IMG/VR virus record: IMGVR_UViG_3300009285_001314
Location: 1-36,533 of that record
Direction: 5' to 3' (one strand)
Length of the DNA stretch: 36,533 nucleotides
DNA from: a virus
Below, one piece after another: positions 18,058 through 28,383 of this stretch. Below the pieces are notes generated by a model. The model searched no databases, was not told the DNA's origin, and worked only from the letters and a program-made list of their open reading frames with translations. How positions within the stretch are numbered: position 1 is the stretch's first letter; each line of letters opens with the position of its first letter. The translations under genes and the position numbers were made by a program.

Positions 18058-18588
18058 ATGTCAAATTTGCCTGAATTAATAAGAGAAATGGTGGAAGTGC
18101 AGAGAATGAGTTTATCCTCAATCGGTAGAGAGTTAAATTATTCGAGGGAGAGAATAAGACAAATTTACAAGCAGGTCGGCAACGGCCTTACGGTCAAGGA
18201 TTGGAAGTTACCCAAAAGCAAATGGCGAAAACCGAAGGTCAATCCATACGCTCTACAAAGATTGGCTCGGATAAAAGGATGCTCTAATCCAGAATGCACG
18301 CATAAACATACTGCACGACAATACGATTGGCATCATCCCGGAGAAAAAAACTTTAACTTAGGGGCAAGATTGGGCAAGGTATCCCGTAATAAATTAAATG
18401 CAGAACTAAAACTCGTAATTCCTTACTGCAACTCTTGCCATATGAAACTACATCATCCCAAAGGGTTAAAGCCAAACGGGGAAATAGCCATGAGTGCAGA
18501 AGAAAAAAGACAAAGGGTAAATGAGCGGAGTAGAAAATATTATAAGCTGCGTTGTGGAAAAACCCAACTTAGAAAATTAGGAGAGTAG
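18058..18588 (+). CDS. HNH endonuclease with sigma-region-4-like HTH (HNH gene 1)
   Basis: A 176-residue protein encoded opposite to its neighbours between large terminase and portal. Residues about 17-40 (MSLSSIGRELNYSRERIRQI) resemble the helix-turn-helix of sigma-70 region 4, probably for site recognition. Residues 75-130 form the HNH nuclease: zinc cysteines C75, C80, C124 and C127, the WHH pair at 91-93, and CHMKLHH. Base composition is more A/T-rich than the flanking late genes, suggesting recent arrival. There is no ribosome binding site; the promoter geometry predicts a leaderless mRNA. It is probably a free-standing homing endonuclease; the target is unknown. Confidence 0.85.
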   Translation: MSNLPELIREMVEVQRMSLSSIGRELNYSRERIRQIYKQVGNGLTVKDWKLPKSKWRKPKVNPYALQRLARIKGCSNPECTHKHTARQYDWHHPGEKNFNLGARLGKVSRNKLNAELKLVIPYCNSCHMKLHHPKGLKPNGEIAMSAEEKRQRVNERSRKYYKLRCGKTQLRKLGE

Positions 18589-23892: not shown

Positions 23893-23911
23893 ACCTTCAG
23901 AGACTGCGATA

Positions 23912-23979
23912 AGAAAAAAAGACCGGGAGACTGCAAGTATTAAGCCCCAAGACGAAAGCCTTGGTTCGCAGTCTCCCGG
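23912..23979 (-). terminator. Strong intrinsic terminator of the replication operon
   Basis: On the minus strand CCGGGAGACTGC (from 23979) pairs perfectly over 12 bp with GCAGTCTCCCGG (ending 23923), with a smaller inner hairpin CCAAG/CTTGG, then TCTTTTTTTC. It closes the operon that ends at 24100 and insulates it from HNH gene 2 and the late block. The 235-base stretch 23865-24099 holds this terminator and the HNH promoter but no convincing gene. Confidence 0.9.
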
Positions 23980-24099
23980 CTAATCTGATAACCCGTCGCC
24001 TAATCGTCTGACCAGTCAAGCTGGGATGATTCTGAACGCCCCGAAGGGCACTCGCTTGGTTTTCAGCTAAGGGATACATTCTGGTCAAACTTTCACCGC

Positions 24100-24333
24100 C
24101 TACCTTTCACGAGCAAAATCCGTATACGGAAGATTATCATGCCATTCAGTACACGCATCGCTTTTTGGGAGGCATTTATGAAAAATCCGGGTGTAGGTCG
24201 TGTCGAGTTCCTTCCGGGCAGCCATGATCGCCAGGATGAGGGCGGCCTTGTCGGGATCGTCGCTGCCGCCGATGCAGGCAAGCAAGTCCTGGAAGCGTTG
24301 ACGGGCGTTGAGATATTCGAGTTCTGGGCTCAT
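24100..24333 (-). CDS. Small hypothetical protein, replication operon
   Basis: A 77-residue helical protein (MSPELEYLNARQRFQDLL, then DPDKAALILAIMAARKELD). Its ATG overlaps the upstream stop as ATGA and GAGAGGG precedes it. It is the last gene before the terminator. No family is recognised; the tight coupling suggests a replication-associated helper. Confidence 0.6.
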   Translation of the reverse strand: MSPELEYLNARQRFQDLLACIGGSDDPDKAALILAIMAARKELDTTYTRIFHKCLPKSDACTEWHDNLPYTDFARER

Positions 24334-26041: not shown

Positions 26042-27023
26042 CGCAATCGCCTCCCTGCAGACCGGTTAAAACCGGGTCGGGTTCCGCGGTCGACATGCCC
26101 TGACGTCCCTGTTCAAGCCGTTCCTTCCGGTCGACGTCCTCCGAAATGACCAGTTCGTCGACATGCCGGATGAACATCTCCCATTTGTGGCCGGCTACCC
26201 ATTTAACCTGAAATTCGTCGCAGTCCGCGGGATCGAGTCCGATGAAGTAATCCATCGCATTCTTTACCTGGGTTTCTGTAAGTCCCCGCTTTAAACACGT
26301 CCGGACGTTAGGGAGAGCATGAGCAAAGGGAATCGACGGCTTAAAACCCCACCGCTTAAAATGGGTAAGAACGTAATGCCCTTGACACCTTTCAGCGGGA
26401 TCATCGGATTTAATCCAATCCTCGGCAGTCCGTCTTTTAGTTTTTTTTTCAGGGCTGTCCGATGCTTTATCGGACGAATCTTTCCTAAGATTCTTCTTAG
26501 GAGACGGAGGAGGAGGAGGAGGAGGAGGAGGAGCGGTGCTTGTAGCGGACGTTTTTAGCGTTTTAGCAGTGCTTGTAGCTACGCTTGAAGCGGTGCTTGT
26601 AGCGGATTTTATGACTGAAATCCTTTCCTGCAGGTATTTTTCACCTTCGAGGGATGTCATCATACCGCGGTTTATTTTGGCCGCGACGTTCCCTTTGATC
26701 GCTCGGATTTTCCTTTCCGGAGCCGCTACGACGTAAGCCTGGTGAAACTCCCACTCATGGACTTCATACTGACCGTCTATTTCGTCCACAAGCCGCACTT
26801 CAAGCAGTGCTTGTAGAAAAGTCCCGGGATCACCTTTCCATCCGGCGGCAATGTCCACGTCGAGCGGGTCCATGCCGTTCATTTTGCCGGTCGGATGATT
26901 TATGGCGATGAAGCACCAAAACCGGATCAAACACCGGTACGCGGGTTCGCCCAATAGTCGGTACAATTTTTCAATTTTTGGGTGGTCGGGGTTGTCGCAA
27001 GCGATTCTGATATCTGTGTTCAT
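26031..27023 (-). CDS. Replication initiator (lambda O-like architecture)
   Basis: A 330-residue protein. Residues 1 to about 110 form a winged-helix-like DNA-binding region (KIEKLYRLLGEPAYRCLIRF; VHEWEFHQAY). A low-complexity linker has three ATSTA repeats and nine prolines (165-173). The C-terminal domain (about 195-300) is a likely helicase-contact module. The start at 27023 is chosen because AAGGA lies seven bases before it; a longer frame to 27062 runs through the leader hairpins. The linker DNA contains iteron-like repeats, as lambda O contains its origin. It lies directly before the helicase gene. The family name is inferred from architecture and context. Confidence 0.7.
   Translation of the reverse strand: MNTDIRIACDNPDHPKIEKLYRLLGEPAYRCLIRFWCFIAINHPTGKMNGMDPLDVDIAAGWKGDPGTFLQALLEVRLVDEIDGQYEVHEWEFHQAYVVAAPERKIRAIKGNVAAKINRGMMTSLEGEKYLQERISVIKSATSTASSVATSTAKTLKTSATSTAPPPPPPPPPSPKKNLRKDSSDKASDSPEKKTKRRTAEDWIKSDDPAERCQGHYVLTHFKRWGFKPSIPFAHALPNVRTCLKRGLTETQVKNAMDYFIGLDPADCDEFQVKWVAGHKWEMFIRHVDELVISEDVDRKERLEQGRQGMSTAEPDPVLTGLQGGDCDEF
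26457..26501. repeat. Two adjacent inverted repeats beside an A/T tract, possible origin element
   Basis: GTCCGAT/ATCGGAC (26457-26463 and 26469-26475) and CCTAAGA/TCTTAGG (26484-26490 and 26495-26501) lie side by side inside the initiator gene. A run of nine A/T pairs lies just to the left (26441-26449) and the iteron-like repeats begin 31 bases to the right. Together they look like an origin, though both dyads are short. Confidence 0.5.
26532..26603. repeat. Iteron-like repeats AGCRGTGCTTGTAGC inside the initiator gene
   Basis: Three 15-bp copies at 26532-26546, 26565-26579 and 26589-26603 differ at one position (G or A). A fourth, 14-base match lies at 26803-26816, and a half copy GCTTGAAGC at 26583-26591. 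They encode the ATSTA peptide repeats of the linker. Iterons inside the initiator gene are known from lambda-type origins. Peptide repetition alone is the rival explanation, but the fourth copy lies in a different protein segment. Confidence 0.6.
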
Positions 27024-27025
27024 AA

Positions 27026-27142
27026 GCTGGTCCTTCAGGGGAGTCCGGCTAAGGACCAGCAAAGGCCGGACTCCCCCAGAAACGAAAAACGCGCTTACCC
27101 GGTCAAGGATGCGCGTCTTGTAATTGTTCTCCCTTGACCGGG
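27026..27142 (-). promoter_or_regulatory. Structured leader of the replication operon with two interleaved hairpin pairs
   Basis: Four perfect inverted repeats are arranged as two A-B-A'-B' sets in the minus-strand leader. Set 1: an 11-bp stem (27142-27132 with 27108-27098) overlaps a 6-bp GC stem (27116-27111 with 27094-27089, extendable by A-U/G-U pairs) followed by TTTTTCGTTT. Set 2: a 12-bp stem (27076-27065 with 27049-27038) overlaps a 10-bp stem (27060-27051 with 27035-27026). The last arm contains AAGGA, the initiator's ribosome binding site. Members of each set cannot easily form together, which suggests alternative terminator/antiterminator and closed/open translation states. Confidence 0.7.
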
Positions 27143-27152
27143 GTACTCAAGA

Positions 27153-27181
27153 ATCTTAAACTAATTTTATCCGCCTGTCAA
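27153..27181 (-). promoter_or_regulatory. Promoter for the replication operon
   Basis: TTGACA (27181-27176), 17 bases, TAAGAT (27158-27153) on the minus strand, overlapping the 3' end of HNH gene 3. The predicted start near 27146 is just before the first leader stem, so the whole structured leader (about 120 bases) would be transcribed. TTGACAGGCGG resembles the operator-like TTGACAAANGG at the switch. Confidence 0.6.
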
Positions 27182-27674
27182 GATTTTTTGCCTTGTTGTA
27201 TTGTTTCCGCCTTCCGAAATTTAATCTATCTCGATTTTTCAGCCAATATCGATAGCTGCCTTGCCTGCTTTTCTCAGGATGTGATGCGTGGTATTCCTTT
27301 TGATATTGGCATTTTCTTAATTTATCGGCTTCTATGCTGTTGTTTTCGGTGCAGATACCATAATATTTATATATATATTTAATAAGCAGTTCACTATGGC
27401 TGGTCACCGCTCGTTTGTTTATTATTGTGTGAACTTGAGAATGGCAGGAAGCGCATAATATATGGCATTTTTCTATTTCCCTAAGAATCGCCCCTATTGA
27501 ACTACCCGCCATGCTCGGAGGATTCATTGTTTTTCTTTCGGGTTCAATATGATGGAAAACTAAATTATTCATTGATCCGCAAACCCGGCAACCATAATGT
27601 TCTTTATATTTCTTAATGAACAATTGATGTTTCCACAATATATCGGTTTTAGAATGTTGATTATTTCTAGTCAT
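27156..27674 (-). CDS. HNH endonuclease (HNH gene 3)
   Basis: A 172-residue nuclease from the ATG at 27674 (MTRNNQHSKTDILWK). Zinc cysteines in GCRVCGS and LCASCHS, an FHHIEPER pair and CHSQVH form the HNH site in the first 110 residues. The C-terminal tail is basic and Tyr/Arg-rich (QKEYHASHPEKSRQG; LKNRDRLNFGRRKQ), likely DNA-contacting. The DNA is A/T-rich compared with the replication genes. The chosen ATG lies seven bases after a perfect -10 box and has no ribosome binding site; an upstream TTG at 27710 is part of the -35 box. Probably a mobile homing gene between switch and replication operon. Confidence 0.85.
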   Translation of the reverse strand: MTRNNQHSKTDILWKHQLFIKKYKEHYGCRVCGSMNNLVFHHIEPERKTMNPPSMAGSSIGAILREIEKCHILCASCHSQVHTIINKRAVTSHSELLIKYIYKYYGICTENNSIEADKLRKCQYQKEYHASHPEKSRQGSYRYWLKNRDRLNFGRRKQYNKAKNLDRRIKLV

Positions 27675-27722: not shown

Positions 27723-27760
27723 AAAAAAAGTACCCCGGCCAACTTTCCCGCTGACCGGGG
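27723..27760 (-). terminator. Intrinsic terminator just downstream of the leftward switch promoter
   Basis: In the minus-strand RNA CCCCGGTCA pairs with TGGCCGGGG (9 bp with one G-U), loop of 10, then TAC and seven T residues (27729-27723). It lies about 45 bases after the predicted start of the leftward promoter at 27840-27812 and before the HNH gene 3 promoter. Confidence 0.85.
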
Positions 27761-27805
27761 CTTCTCGTAGGAGGATTGAGAATGAGATACTGCAACTTAC
27801 TCACA
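27723..27805 (-). ncRNA. Candidate small RNA (promoter-terminator unit without a convincing gene)
   Basis: Transcription from the perfect leftward promoter would begin near 27805 and stop at the T-run near 27723, giving an RNA of about 80 bases. It has no ATG; only a GTG-initiated 27-codon frame without a ribosome binding site is present. An unpaired segment CTCAATCCTCC could pair with the leader of the gene at 28690. This is inferred; it may instead be an attenuated leader of an ancestral replication operon interrupted by HNH gene 3. Confidence 0.5.
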
Positions 27806-27811
27806 CTCAGG

Positions 27812-27840
27812 ATTATAACCAGCGATTTCCCGTTTGTCAA
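27812..27840 (-). promoter_or_regulatory. Leftward switch promoter, perfect consensus
   Basis: TTGACA (27840-27835), 17 bases, TATAAT (27817-27812) on the minus strand. The -35 box forms one arm of the inverted repeat shared with the repressor promoter. Confidence 0.85.
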
Positions 27841-27860
27841 ATTTTTCTATTGACAAATGG
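27830..27860. promoter_or_regulatory. Operator-like inverted repeat over two divergent -35 boxes
   Basis: CCGTTTGTCAA and TTGACAAATGG are inverted copies (10 of 11) separated by nine bases. Each arm contains the -35 box of an outward-facing promoter. A third copy, TTGACAAAGGG, overlaps the -35 box of the early promoter at 28093. One protein bound here, most simply the adjacent repressor, could control all three promoters. Confidence 0.7.
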
Positions 27861-27884: not shown

Positions 27885-28091
27885 ATGGTTAAGAAACTTT
27901 ATACCCTCAGAATCGAAAAAATCAAGCGGCTGATGAAGGCTTACGAAATCAGCAATAGCGCGCTGATAGCGGAGTCTACGCTATCCCGTCGGACGGTCGA
28001 GGAAGTCCTCGCGGGTACGCGAAACGCGAATCCAGCCACTTTAAAGCTGATGGAAATTTCCATAAAAAATTTACGAAAAGGGATTATTTAG
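27885..28091 (+). CDS. Small Cro/CI-like HTH repressor
   Basis: A 68-residue basic protein about the size of lambda Cro. The helix-turn-helix lies at about residues 15-45 (MKAYEISNSALIAESTLSRR followed by TVEEVLAGTRNANPATL), of the XRE/Cro-CI type in which an A/S-L-S-R turn contacts DNA. No dimerisation or cleavage domain follows. It lies between two promoters that carry the operator-like sequence, so it probably binds both and sets the switch between leftward and rightward transcription. Whether it acts as Cro or as the maintenance repressor cannot be told from sequence. Confidence 0.75.
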   Translation: MVKKLYTLRIEKIKRLMKAYEISNSALIAESTLSRRTVEEVLAGTRNANPATLKLMEISIKNLRKGII

Positions 28092-28166: not shown

Positions 28167-28319
28167 ATGACAATCAAAGCATATCAAATCACAGCTAAGG
28201 GAAAAAACAAAGAGGTTGTTATCCCGGATGTATCCGAAGGATTGCCCAGTATGGCAATCTGGGAAATCGTGAGATGTTATCTTCTAAATGCTACATGCTG
28301 GGAGATTGTTCGGGACTGA
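28167..28319 (+). CDS. Small hypothetical protein, first early gene
   Basis: A 50-residue protein, MTIKAYQITAKGKNKE at the N-terminus, with a C-terminal helix (PSMAIWEIVRCYLLNATCW). AGGAG lies nine bases before the ATG. It is the first gene after the early promoter. No family recognised. Confidence 0.6.
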   Translation: MTIKAYQITAKGKNKEVVIPDVSEGLPSMAIWEIVRCYLLNATCWEIVRD

Positions 28320-28383
28320 TACCACAAGCCGGGGCGCGACGGGAAACGCGCAGGCTGGCGAGCATACGCGAGGAGCATTGACG

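Follow-up and report, generated by a model that had tools for sequence, protein, structure and literature searches.

A candidate two-stage RNA gate in the leader of a phage replication initiator gene

Initiator leaders in plasmids and the setting of the phage leader

That plasmids gate their replication initiators by RNA is textbook knowledge. In tailed phages such gating is far less established, and the start of replication is generally ascribed to promoters and repressors. Control of the ColIb-P9 repZ type reportedly depends on an activating pseudoknot and needs a leader peptide. In IncI-alpha ColIb-P9 repZ and in repA of IncB and IncL/M, a loop is complementary to sequence beside the initiator start and structures compete (work cited in PMC10724649). 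The countertranscript-driven attenuators of pT181 repC and pIP501 repR lie in the initiator leader, where a pre-emptor wins by default and a terminator with a U-run stands just before the gene; stem-loop IV of pT181 is also predicted to hold the ribosome-binding site (RBS), and in the pSK41 rep leader an alternative stem, induced by antisense RNA, sequesters the RBS of the initiator (PMC5703833). Homing endonuclease genes of T4 phages commonly come with terminators and with promoters for the downstream gene, and may carry the promoter for the essential gene behind them, and the operator upstream of the I-TevI ORF resembles its homing site (PMC2988022).

The leader analysed here lies on the minus strand of a viral IMG/VR record, all 36,533 bases of which were analysed (the window) and which carries portal, HK97-type capsid and terminase genes. 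An HNH gene lies on one side of it and a gene for a 330-aa protein on the other (Table 1). The preliminary description had placed the leader before a replication initiator, and the downstream gene indeed matches PHROG replication initiation families; its ATG is supported by homologue alignment, and a DnaB-type helicase gene lies downstream of it. The HNH gene is A+T-rich, has its own 12/12 promoter at 27710-27682 and holds in its 3' end the predicted promoter of the initiator, the -10 element of which overlaps the HNH stop codon. From this consensus match the initiator mRNA is expected to start at about 27147-27145, a few bases 5' of the first stem. Divergently upstream, a small Cro/CI-like gene (27885-28091, plus strand) faces a 12/12 consensus promoter at 27840-27812, and a strong intrinsic terminator (27761-27732, U7) lies behind this promoter. 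Within 27812-27860, beside the divergent repressor gene, a palindrome (CCRTTTGTCAA, 9 nt, TTGACAAACGG) overlaps this perfect sigma-70 promoter, which is likely to be an early promoter with its operator. Farther along the plus strand, several consecutive genes between 28160 and 28950 have a near-identical start region like AGGAGCGYAAACGATG (at 28167, 28690 and 28948, with a variant near 28378).

Table 1. Features of the leader and its surroundings (positions in the window)
Feature	Position	Strand	Detail
HNH endonuclease gene	27156..27674	-	35.6% GC vs 51% for the window
Sigma-70-like promoter, TTGACA-17-TAAGAT, 10/12	27153..27181	-	consensus match
Module 1 S1, pre-emptor/antiterminator pair of 11 bp with a 23-nt loop	27098..27142	-	CCCGGTCAAGG 27142-27132 / CCTTGACCGGG 27108-27098
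Module 1 S2, 13-bp terminator-like hairpin, AA bulge	27085..27119	-	arms 27119-27107/27100-27086, merges into UUUUUCGUUU
Module 2 S1, 12 bp perfect, 15-nt loop	27038..27076	-	GGGGAGTCCGGC/GCCGGACTCCCC
Module 2 S2, 10 bp perfect	27026..27060	-	GCTGGTCCTT (inside S1 loop) pairs with AAGGACCAGC
Replication initiator gene, 330 aa	26031..27023	-	phrog_9474/phrog_3926 matches
3' arm of upstream intrinsic terminator, candidate trigger or shared motif	27729..27742	-	complementary to leader 27147-27134
Predicted short RNA, 12/12 promoter 27840-27812 to terminator 27761-27732	27725..27806	-	both transcript ends predicted

The leader contains two modules, each a pair of interleaved stems (S1 and S2). By analogy it would work like the pT181/pIP501, pSK41 or ColIb-P9 leaders, but since neither a countertranscript nor a leader peptide was found, we do not assign it to any of these plasmid systems. 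A sigma-70 consensus scan for a countertranscript promoter reading on the plus strand into 27021-27147 gave as its best match a 9/12 site at 26333, about 660 bp away. A leader-peptide attenuator (trp/erm or repY-repZ type) was rejected, since the leader offers no reading frame beyond UUG-ACC-GGG-stop and the in-frame UUG at 27062, and no known riboswitch or Rfam family matched at gathering score in the window, where sub-threshold matches alone were returned. Module 1 is predicted to combine a mutually exclusive pre-emptor and intrinsic terminator as in pT181/pIP501. Unlike those plasmid systems, the locus belongs to a phage, its leader is shorter and has no convincing antisense promoter, the terminator and the Shine-Dalgarno (SD)-blocking stem form two separate modules, and the candidate trigger comes from upstream sequence of the same strand. 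It differs from pSK41 in that no countertranscript was identified and the module 2 switch is an interleaved loop-SD pairing, and from the repZ type in that the SD itself is the partner of the loop, there is no leader ORF and a full pseudoknot would need longer linkers. As in T4-type homing endonuclease neighbourhoods, the HNH gene contains the promoter of the essential gene downstream, and terminators and RBS hairpins lie around it; the T4 hairpins, however, control the endonuclease (PMC2988022), whereas those described here precede a replication gene.

Interleaved stems and their chance expectation

An inverted-repeat search recovered both stems of module 1, interleaved and at the positions first proposed for them. 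The GC stem does comprise 6 bp (ACGCGC 27116-27111 / GCGCGT 27094-27089), but it had been underdescribed: these pairs are the core of a 13-bp hairpin, to which 27119-27117/27088-27086 and 27110-27107/27100-27097 also contribute and in which 27096-27095 form the AA bulge. Folded without the first arm of S1, this hairpin has an energy of -15.6 kcal/mol and a loop of six nucleotides, UUGACC. T27089, the last base of the core, doubles as the first T of TTTTTCGTTT, and the U-run ends at 27085. S2 thus has the GC-rich stem, the small loop and the directly following U-run of an intrinsic terminator, although the U-run is short and interrupted.

Bases 27108-27107 and 27100-27098 belong to both stems of module 1, which therefore exclude each other whatever the linker lengths. 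The linkers measure 15, 2 and 3 nt, and because the 3-nt linker would need to span 11 bp, co-existence of the stems is unlikely, as the preliminary description had anticipated in calling the linkers too short for a comfortable pseudoknot and the stems probable competitors. The geometric test used the linker-length rule for H-type pseudoknots, and a stable double pseudoknot of that type was rejected for both modules, the critical linker in module 2 having 2 nt across 12 bp. S1 of module 1 is worth -20 to -22 kcal/mol (-20.4 kcal/mol as a bare stem), about 5-7 kcal/mol more than S2. In prefix folding it is already complete when the terminator's 3' arm has yet to emerge. Because S1 is both more stable and first to form, the default prediction is read-through without termination, and termination would need a factor occupying 27147-27132; when the 5' arm was masked in folding, the terminator formed. 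Of the terminator/antiterminator design proposed earlier, the competing stems and a terminator-grade S2 with its U-run hold up, whereas the default fold turns out to be read-through and the trigger had been left unnamed.

Module 2 begins eight bases past the U-run of module 1, from 27076. Its S1 stops 2 nt short of the Shine-Dalgarno sequence, AAGGA at 27035-27031, seven bases 5' of the ATG; this motif lies within the 3' arm of S2, so that the interleaved 10-bp pairing falls exactly on the SD and spacer. Masking the 5' arm of module 2 in folding caused the SD-burying stem to form. In folds that include coding sequence the SD stayed largely paired whichever state was tested (unpaired 0.07-0.14), so the predicted on-state is not cleanly open; translation of the initiator may be throttled in general. 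A long-range helix between the U-run and the SD in the minimum-energy fold was rejected as not significant (294/5000 shuffles). Separately, the in-frame UUG at 27062 (minus strand) has GGGGGAG a few bases before it and could start an extended initiator from within module 2.

The window contains three perfect inverted repeats of at least 10 bp with a gap of at most 30, all in the leader (shuffle mean 0.85 per window), and only two interleaved pairs with stems of at least 10 and at least 6 bp, namely modules 1 and 2 (shuffle mean 0.05). This interleaved geometry occurred 10 times in 617 kb of other phage DNA, with some occurrences possibly double-counted, corresponding to about 0.6 module 1-type cases expected per window; the geometry of module 1 alone is accordingly not exceptional. 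A terminator as strong as S2 arose beside S1 in 59 of 5000 shuffles (conditional p 0.012). Interleaving with both arms of at least 10 bp, as in module 2, was absent from the same 617 kb, and when its 12-bp stem was kept and the loop and downstream bases were shuffled, the 10-bp complement appeared in 0 of 200,000 trials. Module 1 alone is suggestive, and module 2 goes far beyond what chance would give; the latter, next to the start codon, is statistically the stronger feature. The leader as a whole folds with a z-score of -4.55, none of 200 shuffles being as stable. A chance or relic structure devoid of function is very improbable in view of the shuffle and background tests of module 2, even though the structure is known from a single sequence, in which the U-run:SD helix is not significant.

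The contrast between the modules bears on a narrower explanation, in which only module 2 is regulatory, through SD sequestration, and module 1 is an ordinary HNH terminator plus a 5' stabilising hairpin that overlap incidentally. Other phages show the geometry of module 1 about once in every 60 kb or more, the conditional p for its terminator is only 0.012, and its S2 starts about 40 nt past the HNH stop codon, where a terminator of that gene would be expected, much as terminators and promoters commonly accompany homing endonuclease genes in T4 (PMC2988022). However, S1 forms first and would disable an ordinary HNH terminator, the two stems share bases exactly as in attenuators, and the first bases of S1 lie at the predicted transcript start. 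We regard this explanation as unlikely, though it deserves serious weight.

A proposed gate and its candidate trigger

Our tentative reading, to which we give roughly four chances in ten, is that the 125-nt leader of the initiator mRNA is a two-stage RNA gate acting on transcription and then on translation, provided that the promoter is used and that the predicted folds occur in the cell and gate expression. Module 1 would be a transcription attenuator, in which early formation of S1 keeps the S2 terminator from forming and gives read-through by default, and an occupant of the 5' arm (27147-27132) would allow S2 to form and the transcript to end near 27085. Module 2 would be a translational switch, S1 keeping the SD free and S2 burying it. 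If true, a phage initiator gated at both levels by 125 nt of leader would link the plasmid and phage worlds, and the phage may control the timing of its DNA copying through RNA folding.

The best candidate for the trigger would be the upstream terminator arm at 27742-27729. Its 14 nucleotides are all complementary, with one G-U pair, to 27147-27134, where the predicted mRNA 5' end and the 5' arm of module 1 lie; apart from the complement of the sequence itself, no other such site exists in the window, and 0 of 1000 shuffles of both regions gave an equivalent. Through this complementarity a small transcript that begins at the early promoter and stops at this terminator could induce the module 1 terminator in trans, or the arm could pair in cis within read-through transcripts. 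Against such a role, the arm sits in a strong hairpin with a free toehold of about 4 nt, the gain from cofolding is about 1 kcal/mol, and part of the complementarity stems from a shared motif, CCCCGGTCA, whose sharing may instead reflect duplication at HNH insertion or protein sites. The full scheme is a long shot: a dsDNA phage would time its replication by a tandem RNA gate for transcription and translation, switched by an early-promoter small RNA that uses its terminator arm to target the initiator mRNA at its 5' end. For the 5' arm of module 2, no convincing trans partner was found in the window; its own 3' arm aside, the two matches, at 18568 and 35059, are rich in wobble pairs.

The repeats might alternatively be DNA sites, with TTGACCGGGGTACT and its copies (27134-27147, 27742-27729, 27106-27095 and 27750-27761) bound by the HNH endonuclease or a phage regulator and flanking the HNH gene in the manner of I-TevI homing and operator sites. 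A 14-nt inverted copy does lie on both sides of the HNH gene, and the homing-site-like operator of I-TevI provides a precedent (PMC2988022). Yet the half-sites are unequally spaced (6 and 23 nt), module 2 follows the same design without such a motif, and the loops and U-runs suit RNA hairpins, which together make protein-bound DNA sites improbable.

Putative iterons, relatives and a second HNH locus

The inverted repeats directly precede the initiator gene and could in principle be part of a phage replication origin bound by the initiator. Iterons inside the initiator gene are usual in lambda-type replicons, and here putative iterons, AGCRGTGCTTGTAG, occur inside it at 26520-26602; the leader arms do not match them. 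With these repeats within the gene the leader need not be the origin, and we think it most improbable that it is. Copies of AGCRGTGCTTGTAG, possible iterons of the phage origin, are found at 26803-26816 as well as at 26520-26602.

Searches of viral contigs, genome contigs and phage and plasmid records, with the initiator, helicase, capsid, terminase and DNA patterns as queries, found no relative carrying the initiator and leader, and consequently no covariation was counted; a comparison of the leader DNA with 50,697 phage records likewise gave no match. The phage has hardly any known relatives in the collections searched. The sole close phage contig found (IMGVR_UViG_3300035701_000344; terminase 77% and capsid 65% identical) ends before any replication gene, the initiator included. 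Among the candidates rejected were a match to the start-codon pattern that has no stems of the leader's kind and four contigs with the arms of module 2 S2, which form plain hairpins lacking interleaving.

Distant homologous initiators, 25-27% identical in alignment, lacked such a leader in the cases examined. In a Stenotrophomonas plasmid and in Dolichospermum and Microcystis phages the gene overlaps or abuts the preceding gene, and in a Faecalibacterium phage it starts 87 bases behind it; judging by these gene starts, the leader seems not to be a general property of the initiator family. The Stenotrophomonas 'plasmid' (NZ_CP090425.1, 42,041 bp) has the order initiator-DnaB-NinB-Ref and looks like a phage-plasmid.

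A second HNH gene (23864-23460) has its own 11/12 promoter, and both are preceded by a structured stretch at 23906-24120 on the minus strand (z -2.29), for which no Rfam match was found. It combines a 10-bp closing stem around UUUGACCAG../CUGGUCAGA with a GCCC-UUCG-GGGC hairpin; behind these comes a terminator-like hairpin of 12 bp with U7. The order terminator, about 20 nt, promoter and HNH gene is common to both HNH genes.
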